Below are positions 1 to 17,621 of a DNA stretch of 32,163 bases, in pieces (the first letter of the stretch is position 1; every line of letters starts with the position of its first letter). Origin of the DNA: Candidatus Thiosymbion oneisti (lineage in GTDB: Bacteria; Pseudomonadota; Gammaproteobacteria; Chromatiales; Chromatiaceae). The translations under genes were made by a program, and so were the position numbers. The notes under the pieces were generated by a model that searched no databases, was not told the origin of the DNA, and worked only from the letters and a program-made list of their open reading frames with translations. The stretch is from contig NZ_FLUY01001598.1 in the NCBI RefSeq assembly GCF_900092655.1, positions 1-32,163 of the forward strand, written 5' to 3'.

Positions 1-340
1 CGCCGCCTATCAAGACGCTGAACGCAGACAAACATCCATTGCCCCCGTCCATGGGGGCAATGGATGTTGCTGGTTAGTTCCCCATTAGATTTGTTCCAAG
101 TAATGTAATAGTAGTGAAGTTTTGCGGTTTTAGGGGGAGTATGTCGGCAGGTAGGGGGAATTTTGATAGGGTTTGACCCAATTTGCGTAAACCCCGCCAA
201 AAACCCTCAACCTCAAGTCGTTGTTACCCCGATGGAGCCGAAAAGTACAAAACTCCAGGTATAGTAATGAAGTACAGAGAAGCGCGTTCATGGACTACGT
301 AAATATAGTGATTTAACTGAAAAAGAAGAGCAATCACACA
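1..340. other. Non-coding AT-rich leader of the first cassette
   Basis: No convincing gene lies here. The left 80 bases hold a strong hairpin described separately as a possible attC site. The rest is AT-rich and leads into the Roco gene. It contains two loosely similar stretches, around 104-120 and 262-273, both with the pattern ATAGTA(G/A)TGAAGT. A promoter is likely somewhere here, but I cannot place it with confidence. Confidence 0.5.
17..79 (+). repeat. Possible degenerate integron attC site / perfect 16-bp hairpin
   Basis: A perfect inverted repeat pairs 31-46 with 53-68 around the 6-base loop GTCCAT. The pairing continues outward imperfectly: AACGCAGACAAAC at 21-33 can pair with GTTGCTGGTT at 66-75 if three bases bulge out on one arm. 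Outer boxes GCTGAAC (17-23) and GTTAGTT (73-79) resemble the inverse core and core of an attC site, but each departs from the RYYYAAC/GTTRRRY consensus. It would mark the boundary of the upstream cassette. A simple terminator-like hairpin is the alternative. Confidence 0.35.
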
Positions 341-2863
341 ATGAGAATGAGTAACAAACTGGCATTAGGGAAAATTAAATCTGCGATAAAGGCTAGAGCT
401 GACAGGCTAGATTTGTCAAATATGAATCTTGAGGAATTGCCTGCTGATATTGGAGATATAACAACATTAACCGCACTAGATCTATCAAGTAACCGCCTAT
501 CTAAATTACCTGCTTCAATCGGCAACCTGAAGAATCTCAATCATCTTTGGCTCTATAATAATAATTTACGATTTTTACCGGCCGAGCTCAGCAATTTAGA
601 CAAGTTATCTACGTTTGCGATTGATAGAAACCCTCTTCCCGATTCTTTAATTACAACGGCCAAAAGAGGAACCCAGGATGCTCTTACATATTTGAAAAGT
701 TTGTATGGAGGGGCAGAAGAACTCTATGAAGCAAAATTAGTGCTAGTAGGCGAAGGCGCTGTTGGAAAGTCTTCTTTAGTATCTGCCTTGAAAGGTGAGC
801 GTTTTATAGAAAATAGGGCGACAACTCACGGAATTGAAATTACGTCCTTATCTGTTCCGTATCCTGCCTCACATAATAGAAACATCAATCTTAACGTGTG
901 GGACTTTGGCGGTCAGGCCGTATATAGGATCTCACATCAATTTTTTTATAGCAAACGTTCTTTGTATTTGCTTCTCTGGTCTCCGAGATTGGGAGTGGAA
1001 CAATGTGATGTATTAGGCTGGCTGAATAGAATAAAAATCAGAGTTGGATCGGATGCAAGCGTGTTAGTTGTTTCTACACATTGCAACACAGGAGGAAGAG
1101 TCGCAAGGATTGATAAAAGCCAAATTCTCGATGAATATGGGGATATTATACAAGGATTCTGTGAGGTTGATAGTAAAGATAATACAGGAATAAGAGAATT
1201 AAAGATAGAAATCGCTACTGCAGCAAGCCGACTTCCTCAAATGGGCGATCTGCTGAGCGAAAAATGGACGAATGCCAGAAACGATATATTAGGGTTGCTT
1301 GATCCATACATAAGTTTCGATAGGTTTGATTCTGTCTGCAGGAATCATAAAATCGAGCCTGATGCATCATTCGCATTGGCAATGTTAATGCATGATTTGG
1401 GGTATATTATTTATTATGGGGATGATGATGGATTAAAAAAGGAGGTTGTATTGCAGCCAGAGTGGCTAACTAAAGCTATAGGATACGTATTAGAAGACAG
1501 GAAAACGAATGAAGAATACGGTGTTCTCTTCCATTCTAGGCTAATTGATATTTGGGATAAGTCAGTATCTGCAGGCGGACAAAAATACCCTCCTGGATTG
1601 CATTCTTTCTTTTTGCGTTTAATGGAAAAATATGATGTTTCATATCGTCTTCCTGGCGAAAAGTCTAGTTTGGTTGCGCAACTGGTTCCCTCCGAAAAGC
1701 CAAATAATGCGACAACATCATTTTTAGTACTAGATCCAACAGATGCGGTAATCCATATTGTATGCGAAATGGAGAACTCCCCACCTGGACTTATACCTTG
1801 GCTAATTGTGAGAACCCATCAGTTTACTCCAACACCAAGGATGCACTGGGAAAAGGGGATGGCTCTACAATACCGTGAGCATGGTAGAGCCTTGATAGAA
1901 CTAAAGGGTGCTGACTTGCATATGATGATTGGAGGGCGTTGGCCTAATTATTATATGGGTCTCCTAAGACATATTTTAGAAAACCTAATAGGAGAACGTT
2001 GGCCAGGTTTAGAATATCGCTTATCTGTTCCGTGCCCTGTGTCGATGGCTGGCAAACAATGTAAAGGGAGGTTGCCACTAGAAACATTGCAGAATTTGAA
2101 GAGGAAAGGAACCGGAGAAGTACATTGCCTTTCATGCTCATCTTCGCTAAATATTGATAAGCTTCTTACCGGTTTTTCTCAGCCTCATATCAGGAACTTG
2201 GAATCACAGCTAATTCAGCTTGACGATCAACTTTCTAATTTATCGAGTGAGGTTGCTGGGTGGTTTGGCTCATTACTTAATGCTCTTAATCATGAGTCAA
2301 AGGAACATCCTAGGTTATGCACTATTACACCTAACATACCGAACAAAAAAGGAAAAGAGTTTACAAAACTATTAAGAAATGCGGCTGCAATCGAATATCG
2401 ACTGAATTTATGGTGTGAAATGCCAGGGTGCCAACATCCAATCTGCTCAATAGGGAGTGGCGGTGATGGAGAATATGAATTTTCCAAGCCGAAAGATTGG
2501 GTTGTGAAAATAGCCCCATACTTAAAGGTAATCATAAAAACATTAAAAGTTACAATTCCATTTTTGCAAATATCAGAATATTTGGATAAGGACAGCATGA
2601 AGAAAGCCAAGTCGAGTCTTGATTTATTAAATGAATTAACCGCTTCTTTTATTCCTGACGAAATTACTAGAGATGAAGACTCAACTAAGGTACTGACAAA
2701 ATTTGAAGGAGCAGCTCTACGAGAGCTTGGTACGCTTCTATTGGATTTAGATCCATCAAGAACATGGGGAAATATGCGGCGAACAATATTGCCAACTGGT
2801 GACTATATATGGGTTTGTGGCGCACACTATAGAGAACTAAATCCGGATCCACCAAAAATCTAA
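341..2863 (+). CDS. LRR-Roc-COR (Roco family) GTPase
   Basis: An 840-residue protein. A short leucine-rich repeat block of about three repeats lies at residues 22-100. A Ras-like Roc GTPase domain follows at about 130-300, with P-loop GEGAVGKSS (137-145) and switch motif WDFGGQ (187-192). The base-recognition motif is degenerate (THCN near 247 instead of NKxD). A COR-like region extends to about 560. The C-terminal third has paired cysteines around 565-600 (C-x8-C then C-x2-C), zinc-ribbon-like, another cysteine cluster near 692-702, and an aromatic end with WVCGAHYRE. Roco proteins are nucleotide-regulated dimers; the bacterial role is mostly unknown. ATG at 341 is used; ATG at 347 is equally possible, with a weak purine-rich AAGAAGAG 5'. 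The gene is AT-rich compared with the rest of the window. Its TAA lies inside the attC inverse core, so it looks like a cassette gene. Confidence 0.9.
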   Translation: MRMSNKLALGKIKSAIKARADRLDLSNMNLEELPADIGDITTLTALDLSSNRLSKLPASIGNLKNLNHLWLYNNNLRFLPAELSNLDKLSTFAIDRNPLPDSLITTAKRGTQDALTYLKSLYGGAEELYEAKLVLVGEGAVGKSSLVSALKGERFIENRATTHGIEITSLSVPYPASHNRNINLNVWDFGGQAVYRISHQFFYSKRSLYLLLWSPRLGVEQCDVLGWLNRIKIRVGSDASVLVVSTHCNTGGRVARIDKSQILDEYGDIIQGFCEVDSKDNTGIRELKIEIATAASRLPQMGDLLSEKWTNARNDILGLLDPYISFDRFDSVCRNHKIEPDASFALAMLMHDLGYIIYYGDDDGLKKEVVLQPEWLTKAIGYVLEDRKTNEEYGVLFHSRLIDIWDKSVSAGGQKYPPGLHSFFLRLMEKYDVSYRLPGEKSSLVAQLVPSEKPNNATTSFLVLDPTDAVIHIVCEMENSPPGLIPWLIVRTHQFTPTPRMHWEKGMALQYREHGRALIELKGADLHMMIGGRWPNYYMGLLRHILENLIGERWPGLEYRLSVPCPVSMAGKQCKGRLPLETLQNLKRKGTGEVHCLSCSSSLNIDKLLTGFSQPHIRNLESQLIQLDDQLSNLSSEVAGWFGSLLNALNHESKEHPRLCTITPNIPNKKGKEFTKLLRNAAAIEYRLNLWCEMPGCQHPICSIGSGGDGEYEFSKPKDWVVKIAPYLKVIIKTLKVTIPFLQISEYLDKDSMKKAKSSLDLLNELTASFIPDEITRDEDSTKVLTKFEGAALRELGTLLLDLDPSRTWGNMRRTILPTGDYIWVCGAHYRELNPDPPKI

Positions 2864-2948
2864 CAAGGCAAATGCAGCCGACTCCAAAAAGCGCCGTTTC
2901 GCTACGCTCATGGGCGCTTTTTGGGGCAGCTGATTTGCGATGTTAGAC
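2858..2948 (+). repeat. Integron attC recombination site
   Basis: This 91-bp imperfect palindrome has the full attC layout. The inverse core ATCTAAC (2858-2864, RYYYAAC) overlaps the Roco stop codon, and the core GTTAGAC (2942-2948, GTTRRRY) is at the other end. Inner arms GCAAATGCAGC (2868-2878) and GCAGCTGATTTGC (2926-2938) pair with unpaired extra bases, the hallmark that tells an integrase which strand to use. A central stem pairs CCAAAAAGCGCC (2883-2894) with GGCGCTTTTTGG (2913-2924). Its orientation, ORF then attC, is the normal one for a cassette. No integrase gene is present in the window. Confidence 0.85.
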
Positions 2949-2993
2949 TGTACAATGCAATAGTTCTAAGTAATCTGAAAATATTAGGAGTAA

Positions 2994-3209
2994 ATGGTGC
3001 AAAAAGTACAAATCAGTGATGATGTGGCCTCACAGTTATACGAATTGGCGAAAGTTGAGCATATTTCAGCTATGGAGCTTATAACGCAACTTGTGAAGGC
3101 ATATAAAATGGAAATAGCGAAACGAAATGAATTGAAGGAATTCTTTAGGCCCTATCAAAAAGATATGGCAGGTTTTAAATTTAGCCGAGAAGAAGCAAAT
3201 GAGCGATAG
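2994..3209 (+). CDS. Small antitoxin-like protein, partner of the PIN toxin
   Basis: A 71-residue protein with a likely N-terminal DNA-binding segment (VQISDDVASQLYELAKVEHI, ribbon-helix-helix-like) and a charged C-terminal tail ending in FSREEANER, the usual place where an antitoxin grips its toxin. The start at 2994 has a good ribosome site (AGGAG about 5 bases upstream). It begins 46 bases after the attC core, so it is the first gene of the next cassette. Its stop overlaps the start of the downstream PIN reading frame by 11 bases, a standard antitoxin-toxin coupling. I infer the antitoxin role from this context; I do not recognise a named family. Confidence 0.7.
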   Translation: MVQKVQISDDVASQLYELAKVEHISAMELITQLVKAYKMEIAKRNELKEFFRPYQKDMAGFKFSREEANER

Positions 3210-3600
3210 TTTTATCGATACCAATGTCGTTATTTATAGTCTTAGTTAAGATGAGTTAAAACAAAAGGCAGCCATAGCGCTACTAGCAAAAAAACCGGTA
3301 GTATCAGTGCAAGTGTTAAGTGAAACCGCCAATGTAATGAGGAAGAAACTAGGATTTGATATTTCGTCGGTGAGAATTGTTGTAGACCGCATAGCAAATG
3401 AGTGTACTACAATACAGCCTTTAACCATTGATACATTACGACATAGCCTGGATTTATCGGAACGTTATGGTTTTTCACATTTTGACAGTCTTATTATTGC
3501 TTCGGCATTGGATGCCGACTGCACCAAATTCTATTCTGAAGATATGCATCATGGGCCTGTTGTAAATCAAAGGTTGATAATCATTAATCCATTTGTATAA
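3199..3600 (+). pseudogene. PIN-domain toxin interrupted by an in-frame stop (nonsense)
   Basis: From ATG 3199 the frame reads MSDSFIDTNVVIYSLS, the classic PIN N-terminus with the first catalytic aspartate in IDTN. It then meets TAA at 3247-3249. The same frame is open afterwards to 3600 and reads like the rest of a PIN nuclease: QVLSETANVMRKKLGF carries the conserved glutamate, and HFDSLIIASALDADCTKFYSEDM carries the later aspartates. Intact length would be 133 residues, normal for VapC-type toxins. Reinitiation at ATG 3307 would give 97 residues without the first catalytic aspartate, so RNase activity should be lost. A sequencing error at the TAA is the main alternative. Confidence 0.85.
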
Positions 3601-4049
3601 AGCGGTTGTAGAGCCGTCTACTGTATGTTGGACGTTCTACGCCCAGCGGTTAACTTGTATTTTTCAACCAGGCATTGGAGAGACGAAGGGATTATCATAA
3701 GAGAATGAAAACCTTCCTTTTATCTACACCAGGCTACTGAGTGTTTTTATGGAACAATATTGATTGTATTTACTCGCTACAAGCCAAGTACTCACGATAT
3801 AGAGAAATTGGGCCAAAGAGTATCAAGCATAGAGCCAAGGTTTTTGTCTATTTAATCCTGTACTATTAGCTGGCGAGACGAGACTTCGCCTCAAGCCCAC
3901 GAGCCGTGAATTTCTTGTGCAGTGCAGAAACTCGACTCATTTGTAAAGATCCGGGGCCCTCAAGGGATCCTAGTGAATTTTCGCCAGCCGTCCTGTACTT
4001 TGGTGGCTTGCAGGCAAGTACGTTGAGCATCAGCAACCACAAGGTTTTC
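3601..4049. other. Intergenic region between cassette DNA and ABC operon
   Basis: No gene is supported in these ~450 bases. Just after the PIN stop lies a GTTGGAC (3627-3633) matching the attC core GTTRRRY, but I find no matching inverse core and only a 5-bp stem (GTAGA/TCTAC), so this could be a ruined cassette end at best. Base composition shifts from AT-rich to GC-rich towards 3900-4050. This is roughly where the acquired segment gives way to DNA resembling the rest of the window. Confidence 0.4.
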
Positions 4050-5312
4050 ATGATAGTGTTAACCAACTCGACATTCCCTGTTAGGTTCCAGATCGGTGCG
4101 GTTCTTGCCGCAGTTCTCATGTCCGGTTGTGTCCGGGAAGCACCTGTTACTCCAATACTAAGCTGGTATGTATTCAACGAGCCGTCCGGCGCTTTTGCTG
4201 AAGTGGCGCGGCGTTGTGCCGAGAAGTCGGATGGCGCTTACCGCGTTGAGCTCAAGCCGCTTCCCGCTGACGCCGACCAGCAGCGTGAGCAGTTAGTGCG
4301 GCGTCTGGCTGCGCGGGATAGCGATATCGATATTATCGGGATGGACGTGATCTGGACCGCGGAGTTCGCGCAAGCAGGATGGATCCTGCCCTGGTCGCAG
4401 GACGCAGCCCGGCAGGTCAGCATGGGCCGGATCGACGCCGCTGTGCAGAGCGCTGTCTACAAGGAGCGGCTGTGGGCGGTGCCTTTTACCACCAACACTC
4501 AGCTTCTTTGGTACCGCACTGACCGGGTGCCGCAACCGCCGCAGACCTGGGACCAAATGATCGACGTGGCCGAGATGCTCGGGGAGGACGGCACGATCCA
4601 GGCCCAAGGAGAGCGCTATGAAGGACTCACGGTCTTTTTCGTGTCCCTACTCGCATCCGCCGGGGGCTCGGTGCTCGACGAACAGGCAGATGCTCCCGCC
4701 TTGGGTGGCGCTCCTACCCGGGAGGCCTTGCGCATCCTGCATCGCCTTGCCGGATCCCCATCCGCCGATCCGGGATTAGCTACCGCCCGCGAGGACCAGT
4801 CACGCCTTGCCTTCGAGTCCGGCGGCTCGAGCTTCATGGTCAACTACACATACGTGTGGCCGAGCGCCCGCGCGAACGCCCCGGCGGTCGCCGAGTACAT
4901 GGGCTGGGCACGTTGGCCCGCGGTGGAGCCGGGACAACCCAGCCGAGTCACGATCGGGGGAATCAACCTCGGGGTGGGGGCCTTCTCACGCCATCCGGTC
5001 CTGGCACGGCGCGCCGCCGCTTGTATCGCCTCCCCGGAGAGCCAGCGTCTCGCCGCTGAGCGTGGTGGCCTGCCGCCGACGAGCGACAGGCTCTACGACG
5101 ATCCAGAGGTACGGGCGACCTTTCCCTTCGCCGACCTGTTGCGCGAGACATTGCGCGATGCCGTGCAACGTCCCCGGACACCCTATTACAACGATGTCTC
5201 GCTGGCGATCAGCCGCACGCTGCATCCCCTCTCCAGGATCGAGCCCGAGCGGGATGCCGAGCGTCTCCGCGATGCCGTAGGCCGCGCACTGCGTTCGGAG
5301 GGCCTATTATGA
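4050..5312 (+). CDS. Sugar ABC transporter substrate-binding lipoprotein
   Basis: A 420-residue extracellular solute-binding protein of family 1 (MalE/LpqY-like). I chose ATG 4050 because it places a signal peptide of about 26 residues at the start, ending in the lipobox LMSGC with the lipidated cysteine at 27, and AAGG lies 5-6 bases upstream. Reading from 3906 would add 48 residues with no signal character. The body has the usual features of these binding proteins: [24 protein letters not shown] near residue 90, and [16 protein letters not shown] a little later. It captures a sugar at the outer face of the inner membrane for the two permeases that follow. The last bases overlap the next start (ATGA). 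Similarity to trehalose/maltose-type binding proteins is my impression; the ligand is not provable here. Confidence 0.88.
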
Positions 5313-6187
5313 GCCGCGTGCGCGACCACTCGGAGGAGCGTCTGGCCTGGCTCCTGTGCACTCCGGCGGCTCTGGCCATGCTGCTGGTGACCGCCTATCC
5401 GATCACCTACGCTGTGTGGCTCTCGCTTTTCCGCTACGACCTGCGTTTCCCGGACGAACGGGCGTTCGTCGGACTCGCCAATTATGCCGGCGTGCTCACC
5501 TCCGGGGTTTGGTGGGAGTCGCTGGCCAACACCCTGATCATCACCATCGGTTCGGTTTCCATCGAGCTGGTGCTGGGCATGTTACTCGCGTTGTTGATGC
5601 ACCGGGTTCTCTTCCTGCGCGGCACGGTTCGCGCGTCTATTCTGGTCCCTTACGCCATCATTACCATCGTCGCGGCGCTGGCCTGGAAGTTCGCCTTCGA
5701 CCCGGTCACGGGATTCATAAACCCTTGGCTCGGCCTGGAGACGGCCTGGCTGACGGAACGCTGGTCGGCCTTCCTGGTAATCATCCTCACCGAGGTATGG
5801 AAGACCACACCCTTCATGGCCCTGCTGCTGCTTGCGGGTTTGACGTTGGTTCCCCAGGACCTGCTGGACGCGGCGCGCGTGGATGGGGCAAGTGCCCGGC
5901 AGCGTTTCTTTCGGGTGACCTTGCCCCTGATGCGCAATGCGGTCATGGTGGCTCTGCTGTTCCGTACCCTGGATGCCTTTCGCATCTTCGATACCGTCTT
6001 CGTGCAGACCCGCGGCGCTCAGGGTACCGAGACAATCTCCATCGTCGGCTACCACGCCCTTGTCAGCCGGCTCAACCTCGGGCTCGGCTCGGCGGTGTCG
6101 GTGCTGATCTTCCTGTGCGTCGTCGCCATCGCGATGCTCTTCGTCAAAGGTCTTGGGGCCAGCTTCGCTGCGGAGGACAAGGCATGA
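5309..6187 (+). CDS. Sugar ABC transporter permease 1 (MalF/UgpA type)
   Basis: A 292-residue inner-membrane protein with about six membrane segments, the first at residues 13-40. It carries the EAA loop that docks onto the ATPase ([22 protein letters not shown], about 186-206). It forms half of the membrane channel with the next gene. It starts by ATGA overlap with the binding-protein gene and ends by ATGA overlap with permease 2, so translation is coupled. Length is normal for a CUT1 permease without the MalF-specific periplasmic insertion. Confidence 0.92.
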
Positions 6188-9277: not shown

Positions 9278-9556
9278 ATGATTACCGTAACCTCTGTCGA
9301 AGCGCAAAATCGTTTCGGCGAACTGATCGACCGATCCCAGCGTGAACCCGTCGAGGTCACTCGACGTAGACGGACCGTGGCCTATGTCGTTTCCAGCCAT
9401 GACATGCAGGAGTTGGTTGAATTGCGTAGACGGCGTGACGAGGCGACACGCTGGTATTCTCGCTACCGCCGGAAGGTGACCGAGCAAACGGATGACAGCG
9501 AATCCCCCACTCTCACGGATTCGGGCGTGAACCGCTTGGTGCATGAGCTTCGTTAG
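9278..9556 (+). CDS. Phd/YefM-type antitoxin
   Basis: A 92-residue antitoxin. The N-terminus MITVTSVEAQNRFGELIDRSQREPVEVTRRRRTVAYVVSSHDMQELVEL is a textbook Phd/YefM DNA-binding fold, and the polar C-terminus is the usual unstructured toxin-binding tail. ATG 9278 is preferred over ATG 9266 because GGAG (9268-9271) sits at the right distance for 9278 and because the family starts at this methionine. The gene overlaps the PIN toxin gene by 14 bases. Confidence 0.9.
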   Translation: MITVTSVEAQNRFGELIDRSQREPVEVTRRRRTVAYVVSSHDMQELVELRRRRDEATRWYSRYRRKVTEQTDDSESPTLTDSGVNRLVHELR

Positions 9557-9959
9557 GCGGATCGTCATCGACACGGGCGTGTTGGTGAGTGCCGCCATCC
9601 GGCCCGAGTCTGTTCCTGCATTGGCGCTGGAAAAGGCCCTGCTGCAATTCGAGATCTGCGCCAGTGACGAGACGTTGGCCGAACTGGAAACCGTCCTGAT
9701 GCGCCCGAAGCTCGACCCTTATGTCGGGACCGGCTTGCGGCAGGAATTCGTCGCCGAATTTCGGCAAAGGGTGACCATGGTCGCCGTCGACCGGACCGTG
9801 ACCGACTGTACCGACCCGAAAGACAACAAATTTCTCGCACTCGCAGAGGCAGCCGGCGCTGAGCTCATCGTCGCCAGCGACCCGCACCTCACCGATATGC
9901 ACCCCTGGAGGGAGATACCGATCCTGCCTCCGTCGGCGTTCTTGGTGGGTATTCGGTGA
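9543..9959 (+). CDS. PIN-domain toxin (putative toxin component, PIN family)
   Basis: A 138-residue PIN ribonuclease. Acidic active-site residues are visible: D10 in VIDTGVLVSA, a glutamate in ETLAELETVL (44-51), D94 in DPKDNKFL and D113 in IVASDPHL. It matches the group of PIN toxins whose second half reads DNKFLALAEAAGAELIVASDPHL. It is an intact RNase expected to be held in check by the overlapping Phd-like antitoxin. Unlike the PIN frame at 3199, all key residues remain. Confidence 0.9.
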   Translation: MSFVRRIVIDTGVLVSAAIRPESVPALALEKALLQFEICASDETLAELETVLMRPKLDPYVGTGLRQEFVAEFRQRVTMVAVDRTVTDCTDPKDNKFLALAEAAGAELIVASDPHLTDMHPWREIPILPPSAFLVGIR

Positions 9960-13366: not shown

Positions 13367-15458
13367 AGCCATCGCCAATGCCGCCCTGCCATTCCTGTTG
13401 GGTACATCCGCCTTTTTTCTCATCGTCGGACCTCAGGTATTGAGACCGGACAATATCGCTTGGCTAGCCAACGGCGATCCCTCCACGCATTATCTTGGAT
13501 GGCATTTCTTTCGTAACTCCGATTGGTCGTTTCCCATTGGTCTGAATCCCGATTATGGCCTCGAGCTGGGCAATGCCATTCTGTTCTCCGACTCGAATCC
13601 TCTCTTGGCATTTCTCTTCAAGCCATTCTCGTCACTGCTGCCCGAGACCTTTCAATACTTCGGCTGGTGGCTGTTTGCCTGCTTTGTCCTCCAGGCCTGG
13701 TTCGCATGGAAGCTGGTCGGCCTGGTCTCGGAGCATCCCGCTATTCGTCTCCTCGGTGCTGGCTTGTTCGTCTTCGCACCGCCAATGATTTGGCGTCTGC
13801 TGGGTCATCTCAGCCTGGTCGGGCATTTTCTGATCCTCGCGGCACTCTATTTGTCGCTCCGACCGACTCAGCACATGCGTACCGTACTCTGGGCCCTCGT
13901 CCTTGTGGTTGCCGCCTTGGTGCACCCCTATTTGCTGGCGATGGCCGCGGCTCTATGGCTGGCTGACTTGACTCAAATCCTGATTCGGCATGAGCGACCT
14001 GCAAAGTCCGCCGTGCTGGAACTTGTCGGGATTTTGGCGCTGGTCGGGCTCGCCTGTTGGCAGGCCGGCTATTTCACAGTGGGAAGCGGGGTTTCGACGG
14101 GTGGATTCGGTCTCTATCGAATGAACCTGTTTTCCATTTTGGATCCCAATGGTTGGTCATATATATTGAAGAATCTGCCACAGGCAGAGGGGGAATACGA
14201 GGGGTTCAATTATCTCGGCCTCGGAATCATTGCTCTGACGCTCTTCGCGTTGCCTGCGCTGATCGCTGGGAATACTGGCTTACCAGCGGCGATCAAGCAG
14301 CGGGTGACCCTTCTGGGCGCCTTGGTGAGCCTCTTTTTGTTCGCGCTCTCCCACAAGATCGGGATCGGATCGCGGCAGCTCGAGCTTTCACTGGCCGACC
14401 CCTTGTTGCATGCCGCAAACGTATTTCAAAGTTCAGGACGGATGTTTTGGCCCGTGTTCTATGTACTGGTACTGACTGTCGTCTTCATCGCCGTTCGCGG
14501 TCACAATCCCCGGACTGCGATCTCGTTGCTGGCCATCGCCCTTGCGATTCAGGTGATCGATACCAGGGCCGGATGGCAGGTAACCCGGAGCCAGTTGATT
14601 GTAAGGCCCGCGACGGAGTGGGGCACCCCATTGAAAGATCCGTTCTGGGCCCAGGCCGTCGCCAGATACCAAAAAGTTCGGCGGCTGCCTCTGATGGATC
14701 ATTCTCCACATTGGCAAACGCTCGCGGCTTACGCCGGGCGATATGGTCTCGGTACGGATGCGGTCTACCTCGCCCGCGTCAATCAAAGAGCGCTTGAAAC
14801 CGCACTGAAAAAGGCGTCGGTCACCCTGAACACGGGGCGCTACGAGGCCGACTCCCTCTATGTGCTCGACCCGACCAAACTCGGGTCCATCGCCCTGCAC
14901 ATCGATTCCGAGACTGATCTTCTGGCACGCATCGATGGGTTTTACTTGGTGGCGCCCGGTTGGAAGCGTTGCCGCAAGTGTGGTCACCTCGACCGCGAGC
15001 TGGGGTTGGCGGATGTTCTTCCGGCGGTTGGGAGCGGCGAGCGGATCCGGTTCTCGGAGTCCGGAGACGGCCTCATCTATCTGGCCGCAGGCTGGTCCAA
15101 CCCGGAGTCGTGGGGGACCTGGTCGAACGGTCCGGCGGCGGAAGTCGTCTTACTGCTGTCGGATGTCGGTGCCCATGAAATCCTGATCGAAGCCAACGCG
15201 CTGGTCTCGCCCCTTCACCCCGAGCAAAATATCGAAATTTCAGTCAATGGCATGGTAGCGACGACCGCCCGCCTCACGACATACGCCGCCAACCGCATCC
15301 GCGTCCCGATACCTGATGCGGTGCGCGAAAAGCTGCAAAAACACAGGACCTTGCGGCTTAAATTCCGGTTTCCCGACGCCGTGCGCCCGCAGGCTCTCCG
15401 GATCGGTGACGACTCGCGCAGTCTGGCGCTCGGCCTTATGGCCATCACTCTGATTTAA
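13347..15458 (+). CDS. Large membrane protein, DUF6311-like (candidate GT-C glycosyltransferase)
   Basis: A 703-residue protein starting at GTG 13347 (AGAGG about 10 bases upstream). The N-terminal ~420 residues contain roughly ten membrane helices, and the last ~270 form a soluble, presumably periplasmic part with a beta-rich end. Near residues 38-55 the first outside loop reads LANGDPSTHYLGWHFF, an aspartate placed where GT-C enzymes keep their catalytic acid. It is followed by NPDYGLELGNAILFSDSNPLLAFLFKPF, which I associate with the uncharacterised DUF6311 family. A pair of cysteines (CRKC) lies near residue 545. Its place after GtrB- and GtrA-like genes suggests it is the outer-face transferase of a Gtr-type system. 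The family match is from memory; the function is inferred. Confidence 0.75.
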   Translation: MKTSWNKAIANAALPFLLGTSAFFLIVGPQVLRPDNIAWLANGDPSTHYLGWHFFRNSDWSFPIGLNPDYGLELGNAILFSDSNPLLAFLFKPFSSLLPETFQYFGWWLFACFVLQAWFAWKLVGLVSEHPAIRLLGAGLFVFAPPMIWRLLGHLSLVGHFLILAALYLSLRPTQHMRTVLWALVLVVAALVHPYLLAMAAALWLADLTQILIRHERPAKSAVLELVGILALVGLACWQAGYFTVGSGVSTGGFGLYRMNLFSILDPNGWSYILKNLPQAEGEYEGFNYLGLGIIALTLFALPALIAGNTGLPAAIKQRVTLLGALVSLFLFALSHKIGIGSRQLELSLADPLLHAANVFQSSGRMFWPVFYVLVLTVVFIAVRGHNPRTAISLLAIALAIQVIDTRAGWQVTRSQLIVRPATEWGTPLKDPFWAQAVARYQKVRRLPLMDHSPHWQTLAAYAGRYGLGTDAVYLARVNQRALETALKKASVTLNTGRYEADSLYVLDPTKLGSIALHIDSETDLLARIDGFYLVAPGWKRCRKCGHLDRELGLADVLPAVGSGERIRFSESGDGLIYLAAGWSNPESWGTWSNGPAAEVVLLLSDVGAHEILIEANALVSPLHPEQNIEISVNGMVATTARLTTYAANRIRVPIPDAVREKLQKHRTLRLKFRFPDAVRPQALRIGDDSRSLALGLMAITLI

Positions 15459-15465
15459 GGCGATT

Positions 15466-15600
15466 GCTGTTCAAGAGTCAGGCGCTGCTGGACGAGAAGG
15501 CGTTACTGACATGGCCTATGTGGATCTCAATCCGGTGCGGGCGGGGCTGGCCGAGATGCCGGATACTTCGGACTACACCTCGGACCAGGTCGTTTCTGAT
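15466..15600 (+). pseudogene. Fragment of a REP-associated tyrosine transposase
   Basis: This stretch closely matches part of the RAYT gene at the window end (31871-31999). It shares TCAAGAG(T/C)CAGGCG, GACGAGAAGGCG and GGCCTATGTGGATCT, then the same run encoding AYVDLNPVRAGLAEMPDTSDYTS. Bases are missing at 15508-15512 relative to the intact copy (TTACTGACATGG versus CTGCTGGCGGCGATGG), which breaks the frame. Only the C-terminal helix region of the gene remains. It starts 8 bases after the DUF6311-like gene stop. Confidence 0.85.
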
Positions 15601-15623
15601 TTGGGTCTTTGAACAAGTAAATT

Positions 15624-15673
15624 GCCTAACAAGCCCTTGCAGCCGACGCTTGTACCTCATGCGACTGAAGGGC
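15624..15673 (+). repeat. attC-like half site with damaged core
   Basis: GCCTAAC (15624-15630) matches the attC inverse core exactly. It is followed by AA, then GCCCTTGCAGCCGACGC, the usual start of an attC left arm. The matching right arm GCGACTGAAGGGC (15661-15673) pairs with it with one extra base bulged, as in attC. The expected core GTTRRRY then fails: the sequence reads AACAATA. This looks like an inactive cassette end. Confidence 0.5.
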
Positions 15674-15677
15674 AACA

Positions 15678-15705
15678 ATAAGCGGTGCGTCCATGCACCG
15701 CTTAT
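15678..15705. repeat. Perfect 11-bp hairpin with GTCCAT loop
   Basis: ATAAGCGGTGC (15678-15688) pairs perfectly with GCACCGCTTAT (15695-15705) around GTCCAT. The left-end hairpin at 31-68 has the same six-base loop. Both are followed within a few bases by GCTGGTTAG, in opposite orientation in the two places (69-77 here read forward; 15712-15720 reversed). It could be a terminator stem without a T tract, or part of a cassette boundary. Confidence 0.5.
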
Positions 15706-16013
15706 CGGCGGGCTAACCAGCAAATGCACTATAAAAAGTCTTACCGACCGGAAAGCACAATAGGGACATGCAGCGGGCACGAAAAACCTGATGTCTACGG
15801 GATTTCGACCAGGTACGTGGCCTGGGCCTATAGAAACCACGGGTAGTAGTTAAATTCAAAGTGGTATGGTTGTGCGATCTGATGGTTCCAACCCCCGCAG
15901 TTTTTGCCATCCCTGGCACTGGATTCCAGCGTCCCAGCCGGAATGAAGGCTTGGTTGCCGGCTCCCACGAGAGTTGCTACCTTTCAATGGGGCTTCTAGT
16001 TACTGATTGAAAA
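15706..16013. other. Gene-free debris region
   Basis: I see no gene here. Short open frames lack any family resemblance. The segment CACTGGATTCCAGCGTCC near 15917 resembles dispersed genomic repeats. The region is bounded by the attC-like remnant and the 163-bp MITE, consistent with accumulation of insertions between the glycan locus and hipA. Confidence 0.4.
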
Positions 16014-16176
16014 GGGACCTATATACATAGTTAGCCAGAACCACAATTAGGGAAAGCTACCGGCAGCCTATGGAGACTGAGGCGGTTGCGAAACCAGTTC
16101 TTATCCGTCATTTGGATTTCATCCAGGCCGCAAAGGAAAACACCACCCGCCGTGGCTAGCTATGTATATAGGTCCC
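16014..16176. mobile_element. 163-bp MITE with 24-bp terminal inverted repeats and 8-bp target duplication
   Basis: The left end (16014-16037) begins GGGACCTATATACATAG. The right end (16153-16176) is its inverted copy with 23 of 24 bases matching. The element is flanked on both sides by the identical octamer ATTGAAAA (16006-16013 and 16177-16184), a perfect target-site duplication. It has no coding capacity, so it must be mobilised by a transposase elsewhere. Families making 8-bp duplications include ISL3, IS6, IS66, IS256 and IS1595; I cannot assign it to one. The clean duplication suggests a relatively recent insertion. Confidence 0.9.
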
Positions 16177-16190
16177 ATTGAAAACACCTC

Positions 16191-16322
16191 CTAGTACCTC
16201 ATTTCATCAAATTTTGCATGTATCCCGCAGGGTGGGCTGTGCCCACCACTATGGGCCTGGATGGTGGGCACAGCCCACCCTACGGGTTTGATAATGAAAA
16301 ATAAGGTGAAACGAGGTACTAG
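16191..16322. mobile_element. 132-bp inverted-repeat element with nested hairpin
   Basis: The outer ends CTAGTACCTCATTTCA (16191-16206) and TGAAACGAGGTACTAG (16307-16322) are inverted copies with one mismatch. Nested inside is a long hairpin: CCGCAGGGTGGGCTGTGCCC... (from 16225) pairs with its inverse ending at 16285, 23 of 24 bases matching. This inner GGTGGGCACAGCCCACC palindrome is widely dispersed in gammaproteobacterial genomes in my recollection. The terminal CTAG or TA could be the target duplication. It starts only 6 bases after the right duplication of the 163-bp MITE. Confidence 0.75.
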
Positions 16323-16350
16323 CGCCGGGATAGGGGTAACGATGTGTCTG

Positions 16351-17240
16351 TCAGCCGACGCGAGCCTCTCGAGCACGCGCATCGTCGGCCATGGCTTTCA
16401 GGTAAGCAGCATCGTCGCCGAGACCCTCGAAGGCGTAAGGATTCAGGAACTGTCGCCCCCACAGCAGGGTGCGGTCTGTCGGAGCGAGCTCGGCTTGGTC
16501 ACAAACGCTGTCCCAGCTCTCGATAATCTTGTCCAGCAGACCTTCGAGGATCGCGATTGCCTCATCGCGGGACAGTAGAAAATGAGCCGCCGCATCGAGG
16601 CATGAAGCGATCCGGCTCATGCGATCTCCACCGGTGATCAGCGTCGCCTGTGAGGCCTCGTTGCCGGTGCGCGGTTGCGGACAGAATCGTAGGCCGGTGT
16701 CAGCGCGAGCGCCTGCCCGTCCCAGAAGGCCGAGTGGTTACGGGGGTGATCGTCCGTGTTGCCGCACAGGATGTTGAATGCCAGTCGGGAGAAGAGCTCG
16801 CGTAGCGTCGCTCGAGCATCTTTGAAGCGGTGACGGACGAGCTCCGCCAAGTCCTCGTAGCTCGCATAGCGCGCCATAATCTCATCGAGGGCGAGCATCG
16901 TGAGTGCCGACACCATCGCCTTGCGTTGCCAGCCGCCGCCGGATGGCACGCGGTCGAAACGCTCGATCAGCAGCACCTCTTTGTGCATCGCGCGTACAAG
17001 GGAGACGGGCGCCACCTCGAGCCCCGCCAGAGCACCGATTCGCATGGCAATGAATTCTGCCTTGGCCAGGCTGTAGAGATCGGTCGCCGACGCAAACTTG
17101 GCGATGTATTTTTTGCTACCCGCTTGAATCTGCGCCTTGGGCCGTGCTCCACCGATCGCGGTCCCATGCAGCAAGGCTTGATCGAGCTCGGAGCTCAAGG
17201 GCAAGCCTTTTTCTACGCGCTCGACGGATTGTACGAGCCC
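16351..17240 (-). pseudogene. hipA-like toxin kinase, truncated and frameshifted
   Basis: The minus-strand frame from about 17240 encodes GLVQSVERVEKGLPLSSELDQALLHGTAIGGARPKAQI, then KKYIAKFAS, ERFDRV and the catalytic loop LAFNILCGNTDDHPRNHSAFWD. The kinase motifs of HipA (Gly-rich loop, lysine, NTDDHxxN) are thus present. After LTPAYD near 16685 the frame breaks. Shifting frame restores the family sequence CPQPRTGNEASQATLITGGDRMSRIASCL and continues to 16351. The N-terminal ~100 residues are missing and replaced by an 88-bp palindrome, inside which the apparent start codon at 17273 lies. No hipB partner is seen. About 300 of the usual ~430 residues remain, so it is almost certainly dead. 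Confidence 0.85.
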
Positions 17241-17325
17241 GCGTAGGGCGGGACAGGTCAGGGACGACCGCATCCCGCCGTCCGAGTATCGGCGGGATGC
17301 GCTGCGCTTTCCCGCCCTACGCGGG
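17238..17325. repeat. 88-bp double palindrome that truncates hipA
   Basis: Outer arms CCCGCGTAGGGCGGGA (17238-17253) and TCCCGCCCTACGCGGG (17310-17325) are perfect inverse copies. An inner perfect hairpin pairs GCATCCCGCCG (17270-17280) with CGGCGGGATGC (17290-17300). The GTAGGGCGGGA...GATGCGCTGCGC motif belongs to a common class of dispersed non-coding repeats. It sits exactly where the hipA sequence stops resembling its family. Confidence 0.8.
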
Positions 17326-17621
17326 CTGGCGGGGCTCTCGCTACATCAACGCCCAGCTAATCTTCCGGAGCAACGAAGACAAGAAGTGGAGGGACGCGAC
17401 GGGTGATGGCGGGTGCATTCAACAGAAAGTTTCTGTCCCGCCCTATGGCATGGTGTTACTTCGAGAGGGATCGTAGTGTTGACATTTAGAAGGTCCGCAC
17501 AGCGGACCCTACGTCAACCATATACCAAGGCTTGTCCACCAGGATTCTCACAGATTTTTTCGTTTTTCATCTACGAAATCTGTGGATTGAAAGCGAGCTT
17601 GATTCACGACCATTGCCTTAC
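17326..17621. other. Repeat-rich gap between hipA remnant and aceK
   Basis: Plus-strand frame 17342-17476 encodes YINAQLIFRSNEDKKWRDATGDGG...SVPPYGMVLLREGS and could be the C-terminal tip of a carbohydrate-active enzyme. This is a weak impression and no start or body exists. GGTCCGC-ACA-GCGGACC (17492-17508) is a hairpin inside a wider TTGAC...GTCAA repeat. CACAGATTT (17549-17557) pairs with AAATCTGTG (17576-17584) just beyond the aceK stop and may help end that transcript, although no T tract follows. Confidence 0.4.

Follow-up and report, generated by a model that had tools for sequence, protein, structure and literature searches.

The Roco family includes the Parkinson's-disease protein LRRK2, for which bacterial Rocos serve as models. 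These bacterial proteins alternate between a dimer and a GTP-bound monomer, and the LRR domain swings widely as they do so (PMC11052575); by both sequence and fold the closest solved Roc-COR relatives of the protein described here are Methanosarcina barkeri Roco2 (4wnr) and C. tepidum Roco (CtRoco; 6hlu, 8r4b). Prokaryotic LRR-AP-GTPase-COR proteins are predicted by Kaur et al. 2021 (PMC8195603) to form counter-invader systems whose C-terminal effectors vary. As to mobile DNA, the closest described arrangements are the cassettes of sedentary chromosomal integrons and the CALIN elements (IntegronFinder, PMC9024848). The window examined here is one whole contig (C1822, 32163 bp) of the Candidatus Thiosymbion oneisti draft genome (4.33 Mb in 1891 contigs, 99.7% complete), and its left end carries a Roco gene that resembles such cassettes in having a 3' attC on a single gene and in the same orientation, a stop codon that falls in R'', a low GC content, toxin-antitoxin genes as neighbours, and an integrase that the genus possesses but that is degraded in the window's own genome. 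It differs from them in its cargo, a Roco GTPase, in its length (2858 bp, the median being 712) and in a left core that is split by an inserted element. The features on which the comparison rests are as follows.

1-84, plus strand: right end of a non-coding repeated element of ~258 bp, within which the contig starts; an inverted repeat, TTGCTGGTTAGCTCCCC, lies near its right edge
85-90, plus strand: TTAGAT, the cassette-side half of an R' core and the left boundary of the Roco cassette; homology between copies of the element stops here or at an adjacent position
85-2942, plus strand: putative Roco gene cassette, complete, of 2858 bp and 40% GC, delimited by the left half-core and the attC and by composition
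91-340, plus strand: non-coding leader of the Roco cassette, in which all contained ORFs are of 53 aa or fewer
341-2863, plus strand: Roco gene, 840 aa from an ATG start, LRR-Roc-COR; domains (aa) LRR ~20-115, Roc 130-300, COR-A 307-449, COR-B 471-610, C-terminal domain ~614-840
2858-2948, plus strand: attC site, R'' ATCTAAC at 2858-2864 and R' GTTAGAC at 2942-2948, assigned by model and fold
2943-3626, plus strand: second cassette, vapBC-like, with a degenerate attC of its own at ~3597-3633
2994-3209, plus strand: antitoxin-like gene, with a copy at 92% identity on contig C1490
3199-3600, plus strand: VapC-like PIN gene with an in-frame stop at 3247-3249
3627-3851, plus strand: remnant of a third cassette, an internally deleted nucleotidyltransferase-HEPN gene, with core GTTGGAC at 3627-3633
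3852-3942, plus strand: further repeated fragment, 90% identical to contig C1497, followed by an ABC-transporter operon

Two attC covariance models were employed: R1 was built on ten sites from the window's own genome and then used to gather sites from G196, a better assembled sister genome that also served for cassette comparisons, and R2, the independent model, was built solely from these G196 sites, with no sequence from the window's own genome. When the whole window was searched with R2, the site at 2858-2948 scored 68.1 bits (E 9.9e-15) on the plus strand as against 41.5 bits on the minus strand, placing the attC in the orientation of the Roco gene. Folded as a single strand, 2856-2952 takes the attC shape, with the bottom strand at -26.9 kcal/mol (z -6.3; 0 of 200 shuffles as good), and the hairpin at 2858-2948 beats shuffles on both strands. 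The TAA stop of the Roco gene (2861-2863) lies inside R'', whilst TTAGAC of R' forms the start of the next cassette. The earlier note on this DNA had described a well-formed attC with the end of the Roco gene inside its inverse core, and both points were borne out, the former by the covariance-model check that it had proposed. A scan of 1-4500 against Rfam gave no match at E <= 1. A transcription terminator or some other hairpin would also give an inverted repeat here, and the long, G+C-rich stem does contain T runs; this reading is nevertheless scarcely credible, given the full R''/L''/L'/R' architecture with one extrahelical base, a score of 68 bits with a model from another genome and a preference for the plus strand, the lack of any call at 2858-2948 by intrinsic-terminator prediction, and the dispersal of like attC sites across the genus.

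At the other end, the contig begins inside a repeated element. Positions 1-88 match ~45 places in G196 at 91-99% identity, with four or five further copies or ends in the window's own genome, and alignment of 15 G196 copies with their flanks (4509-4766 of locus L222 and 14 others from loci L219-L226) delineates a sequence of ~258 bp with 17-bp inverted repeats (GGGGAGCTAACCAGCAA and TTGCTGGTTAGCTCCCC) and a 28-bp palindrome at its left edge. The integrase IntI crosses over between the G and the TT of the attC R' box, and 10 of the 15 aligned copies directly follow a model-detected attC body and separate the G of this box from its TTRRRY; in the other five the left flank is a different sequence. 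The left core of the Roco cassette is of this GTTRRRY type and is present as TTAGAT at 85-90, its G being beyond the inserted element and off the contig. The attC body lies past the contig end, and what can be seen at the left end of the cassette is the half-core and the element before it. TTAGAT is the exact reverse complement of ATCTAA in the cassette's R'' (2858-2863), and a left core complements the R'' of its own cassette because cassettes insert as circles: in G196 the left core corresponds exactly to the cassette's own R'' in 27 of 52 cassettes, a match better than in 2000 of 2000 shuffles, and of the 11 cores that follow element-split cores, 8 are exact matches to R'' of the next cassette. 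With a half-core complementary to its own R'' at the left and an attC at the right, the cassette therefore comprises 85-2942, a segment that may excise and insert as a unit.

A hairpin at 21-75, considered as a second attC, reached only 9 bits with the attC models and belongs to the repeated element. As to a derivation of the repeated element from an attC-targeting element of IS1111/IS110 type, its inverted repeat was absent from 30 IS110-family loci, in which partial matches fall in unrelated IS sequence; no parent transposon was found, and IS1111-type elements that target attC are no more than a lead. Elsewhere in the window, another attC at 15624-15683 (extending to ~15725; 34 bits with R2) stands directly past the end of an ORF resembling an IS200-type transposase, and its R' is apparently interrupted by the left end of the same ~258-bp element.

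These boundaries alter the picture given by the earlier note in part. The cassette begins at 85 and not at 341, with ~250 bp of non-coding leader ahead of the gene, in which no sigma-70-like site was found on the plus strand. The description of the cassette as unusually large holds, since its 2858 bp exceed all 67 G196 cassette intervals (median 712, maximum 2766), whereas the length of 2.5 kb then suggested does not. The longest of the G196 intervals (14600-17365 of locus L225) holds a group II intron directly behind an attC core split by the repeated element. The difference in base composition from the rest of the window is confirmed, with 40.4% GC in the Roco cassette as against 59.8% for 4200-32163, a region with no 2859-bp stretch below 55%.

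To the right of the Roco cassette, paralogues of the downstream cassettes adjoin attC sites on other contigs. The 93 bp from 3627 are 89% identical to contig C1215, beginning exactly at the R' box (1064-1070) of an attC there whose cassette encodes, by translation, an intact nucleotidyltransferase-HEPN protein; compared with intact homologues, the window remnant retains the start of the protein and a portion of its HEPN domain. Past 3942 the composition rises to the chromosomal level and the ABC-transporter operon starts. This operon is common to relatives (70-75% DNA identity), none of which has an attC at this locus or a Roco above the search threshold. The earlier note had held that Roco homologues at the same chromosomal place without attC sites would speak against a cassette; what relatives have at this place is the ABC-transporter locus, without a Roco above the search threshold.

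Dozens of attC sites are scattered over the window's own genome, in which integron integrase was found as fragments only; on the window contig itself there is no intI, so that the pairing of intI with a nearby array that defines a complete integron is absent. Judged by its sequence, G196 is one Chromatiaceae genome with multiple dispersed integron copies, and its intact IntI scores 459 bits. We count 94 attC matches in several arrays there, together with that one intact intI and several broken copies. Real integrons thus exist in the genus. In the window's own genome, contig C108 (locus L019) carries minus-strand intI fragments at 5855-6073 and 9434-9811 that adjoin an attC array (sites at 9828, 10861 and 11409) including a BrnT toxin cassette; the order of the N- and C-terminal pieces does not fit a single gene, which makes two or more decayed copies likely. 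On these data the Roco cassette lies in a decayed array, in a genome with no detectable intact integrase.

Rocos are mostly chromosomal, two others in this genome included, and this stretch of the contig shows one clear attC, the left attC body being off the contig. Both observations would suit an ordinary chromosomal Roco beside a stray attC, for example one next to which a vapBC cassette had inserted at an attG (non-attC) site. We regard this as improbable, because the Roco stop lies in R'', the half-core TTAGAT matches R'' and immediately follows an element that in most cases interrupts attC cores, the GC content is cassette-like over all of 85-2942, and relatives have the ABC-transporter locus with neither an attC nor a Roco above threshold. 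The central proposal of the earlier note, that the Roco gene is cassette cargo, is instead upheld by the attC at its right and the R''-complementary half-core at its left, behind the attC-splitting element, and the gene is very probably an integron gene cassette, a reading that the sequence supports well. Taking all features together, the best explanation, which we hold with good though slightly lesser confidence, is that the Roco cassette at 85-2942 was recruited into a Chromatiaceae chromosomal integron and now resides in a decayed array. IntI-mediated recombination at attC sites would have brought the cassette into the chromosomal integron system of the genus; the array would have decayed afterwards, and the small repeated element would later have split the core at the cassette's left end.

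The Roco cassette is a single case and not a class. Searches with R2, which was trained on this genus and which distant attC types may escape, detected no attC at the Roco genes of 76 public-genome loci or of a further 16 from the order, which include this genome's two other Rocos; the question raised by the earlier note, whether Roco homologues also end in attC sites, is hence answered in the negative for all 92 regions. A Roco at C11:484928 of G196 (locus L224) has attC sites in its region, but none within 2 kb of the gene. The literature search found no published precedent for a Roco as integron cassette cargo, and the view that Rocos are not standard cargo stands as far as it can be tested. 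No relatives were found in phages or viral contigs, and the 10 relatives found on plasmids are distant and partial, each covering less than 80% of the query.

The protein itself is a recognisable Roco. Pfam assigns Roc (1.5e-21), COR-A (1.3e-30), COR-B (1.2e-22) and LRRs to the 840-aa ORF, the first three over the cut-off, and Foldseek matches the core fold to 6hlu (E 1.3e-32), 3dpu and 4wnr (TM 0.89). With CtRoco and M. barkeri Roco2 it shares the LRR-Roc-COR order, this core fold, and the P-loop (GEGAVGKS) and DFGGQ motifs, both of which are intact. It differs from them in a minimal LRR domain of about four repeats, in a G4 motif that reads THCN rather than THxD (G4 also varies among homologues), and in a C-terminal domain of 230 residues without relatives in Pfam or the PDB. 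Residues 611-840 matched no Pfam family and no solved structure, and the structure predicted for this domain is of low confidence (pLDDT 58) and likewise without a structural match; these C-terminal ~230 residues are conserved among homologues from Anaerolineales, Flavobacterium, Syntrophaceae, actinomycetes and another Chromatiaceae bacterium.

N-terminal LRRs, Roc-COR and a variable C-terminal domain in the effector position are also the layout of the AP-GTPase (Roc)-COR conflict systems, from which, as far as the parts of that work considered here describe them (PMC8195603), the present protein differs in being cassette-borne and in a C-terminal domain that is not GT4, TIR, DRHyd, caspase, trypsin, FGS or EADs. 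A conflict or defence role, which the earlier note had put forward as a hypothesis, is plausible for the cassette Roco, albeit at somewhat less than even likelihood, and the gene may be expressed. In such a role the LRRs would sense a ligand, Roc-COR would then change state as a self-contained GTP-dependent switch, and the C-terminal domain would relay the effect, most likely in defence or another conflict. There is about an even chance that the cassette is genuine and its Roco unrelated to defence, being a signalling or stress-response GTPase or unexpressed selfish cargo. This reading would accord with the absence of any PADLOC family match to the protein (0 matched), with a leader in which no promoter was recognised, with the general silence of cassettes distant from Pc (PMC11023631), and with homologue neighbours that are mostly housekeeping or transport genes, the neighbour survey having found no consistent defence partner. 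Pfam and the PDB gave no recognisable effector domain at 611-840. What argues for defence, by contrast, is the published prediction for the LRR-Roc-COR architecture (PMC8195603), the toxin-antitoxin and defence cargo of the same cassette pool, and a NACHT ATPase gene beside tandem Rocos at one homologous locus. The cargo, which is context and not a test, comprises among 48 G196 cassette ORFs three HEPN, three nucleotidyltransferase, two DUF5615, ParE, HicB and PIN-like proteins, one Shedu and one TIR/ThsB-like protein. At the Anaerolineales locus in question (L035, 3593-10869), the NACHT ATPase gene is directly upstream of the two Rocos.

The Roco cassette widens both the size and the type of cargo known for integrons. 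It is possible, if rather unlikely, that the integrons of the genus circulate a stand-alone Roco immune switch, composed of an LRR sensor, Roc-COR and a new C-terminal effector, as a single-gene cassette; were this so, GTPases of the LRRK2/DAPK type would be part of the mobile prokaryotic defence repertoire. The functions of bacterial Rocos are largely obscure, and the cassette Roco is a bacterial relative of LRRK2. Since it travels alone on its cassette, it must either need no genetic partner or rely on host partners that many bacteria share, and its function would for that reason be testable in a laboratory strain.
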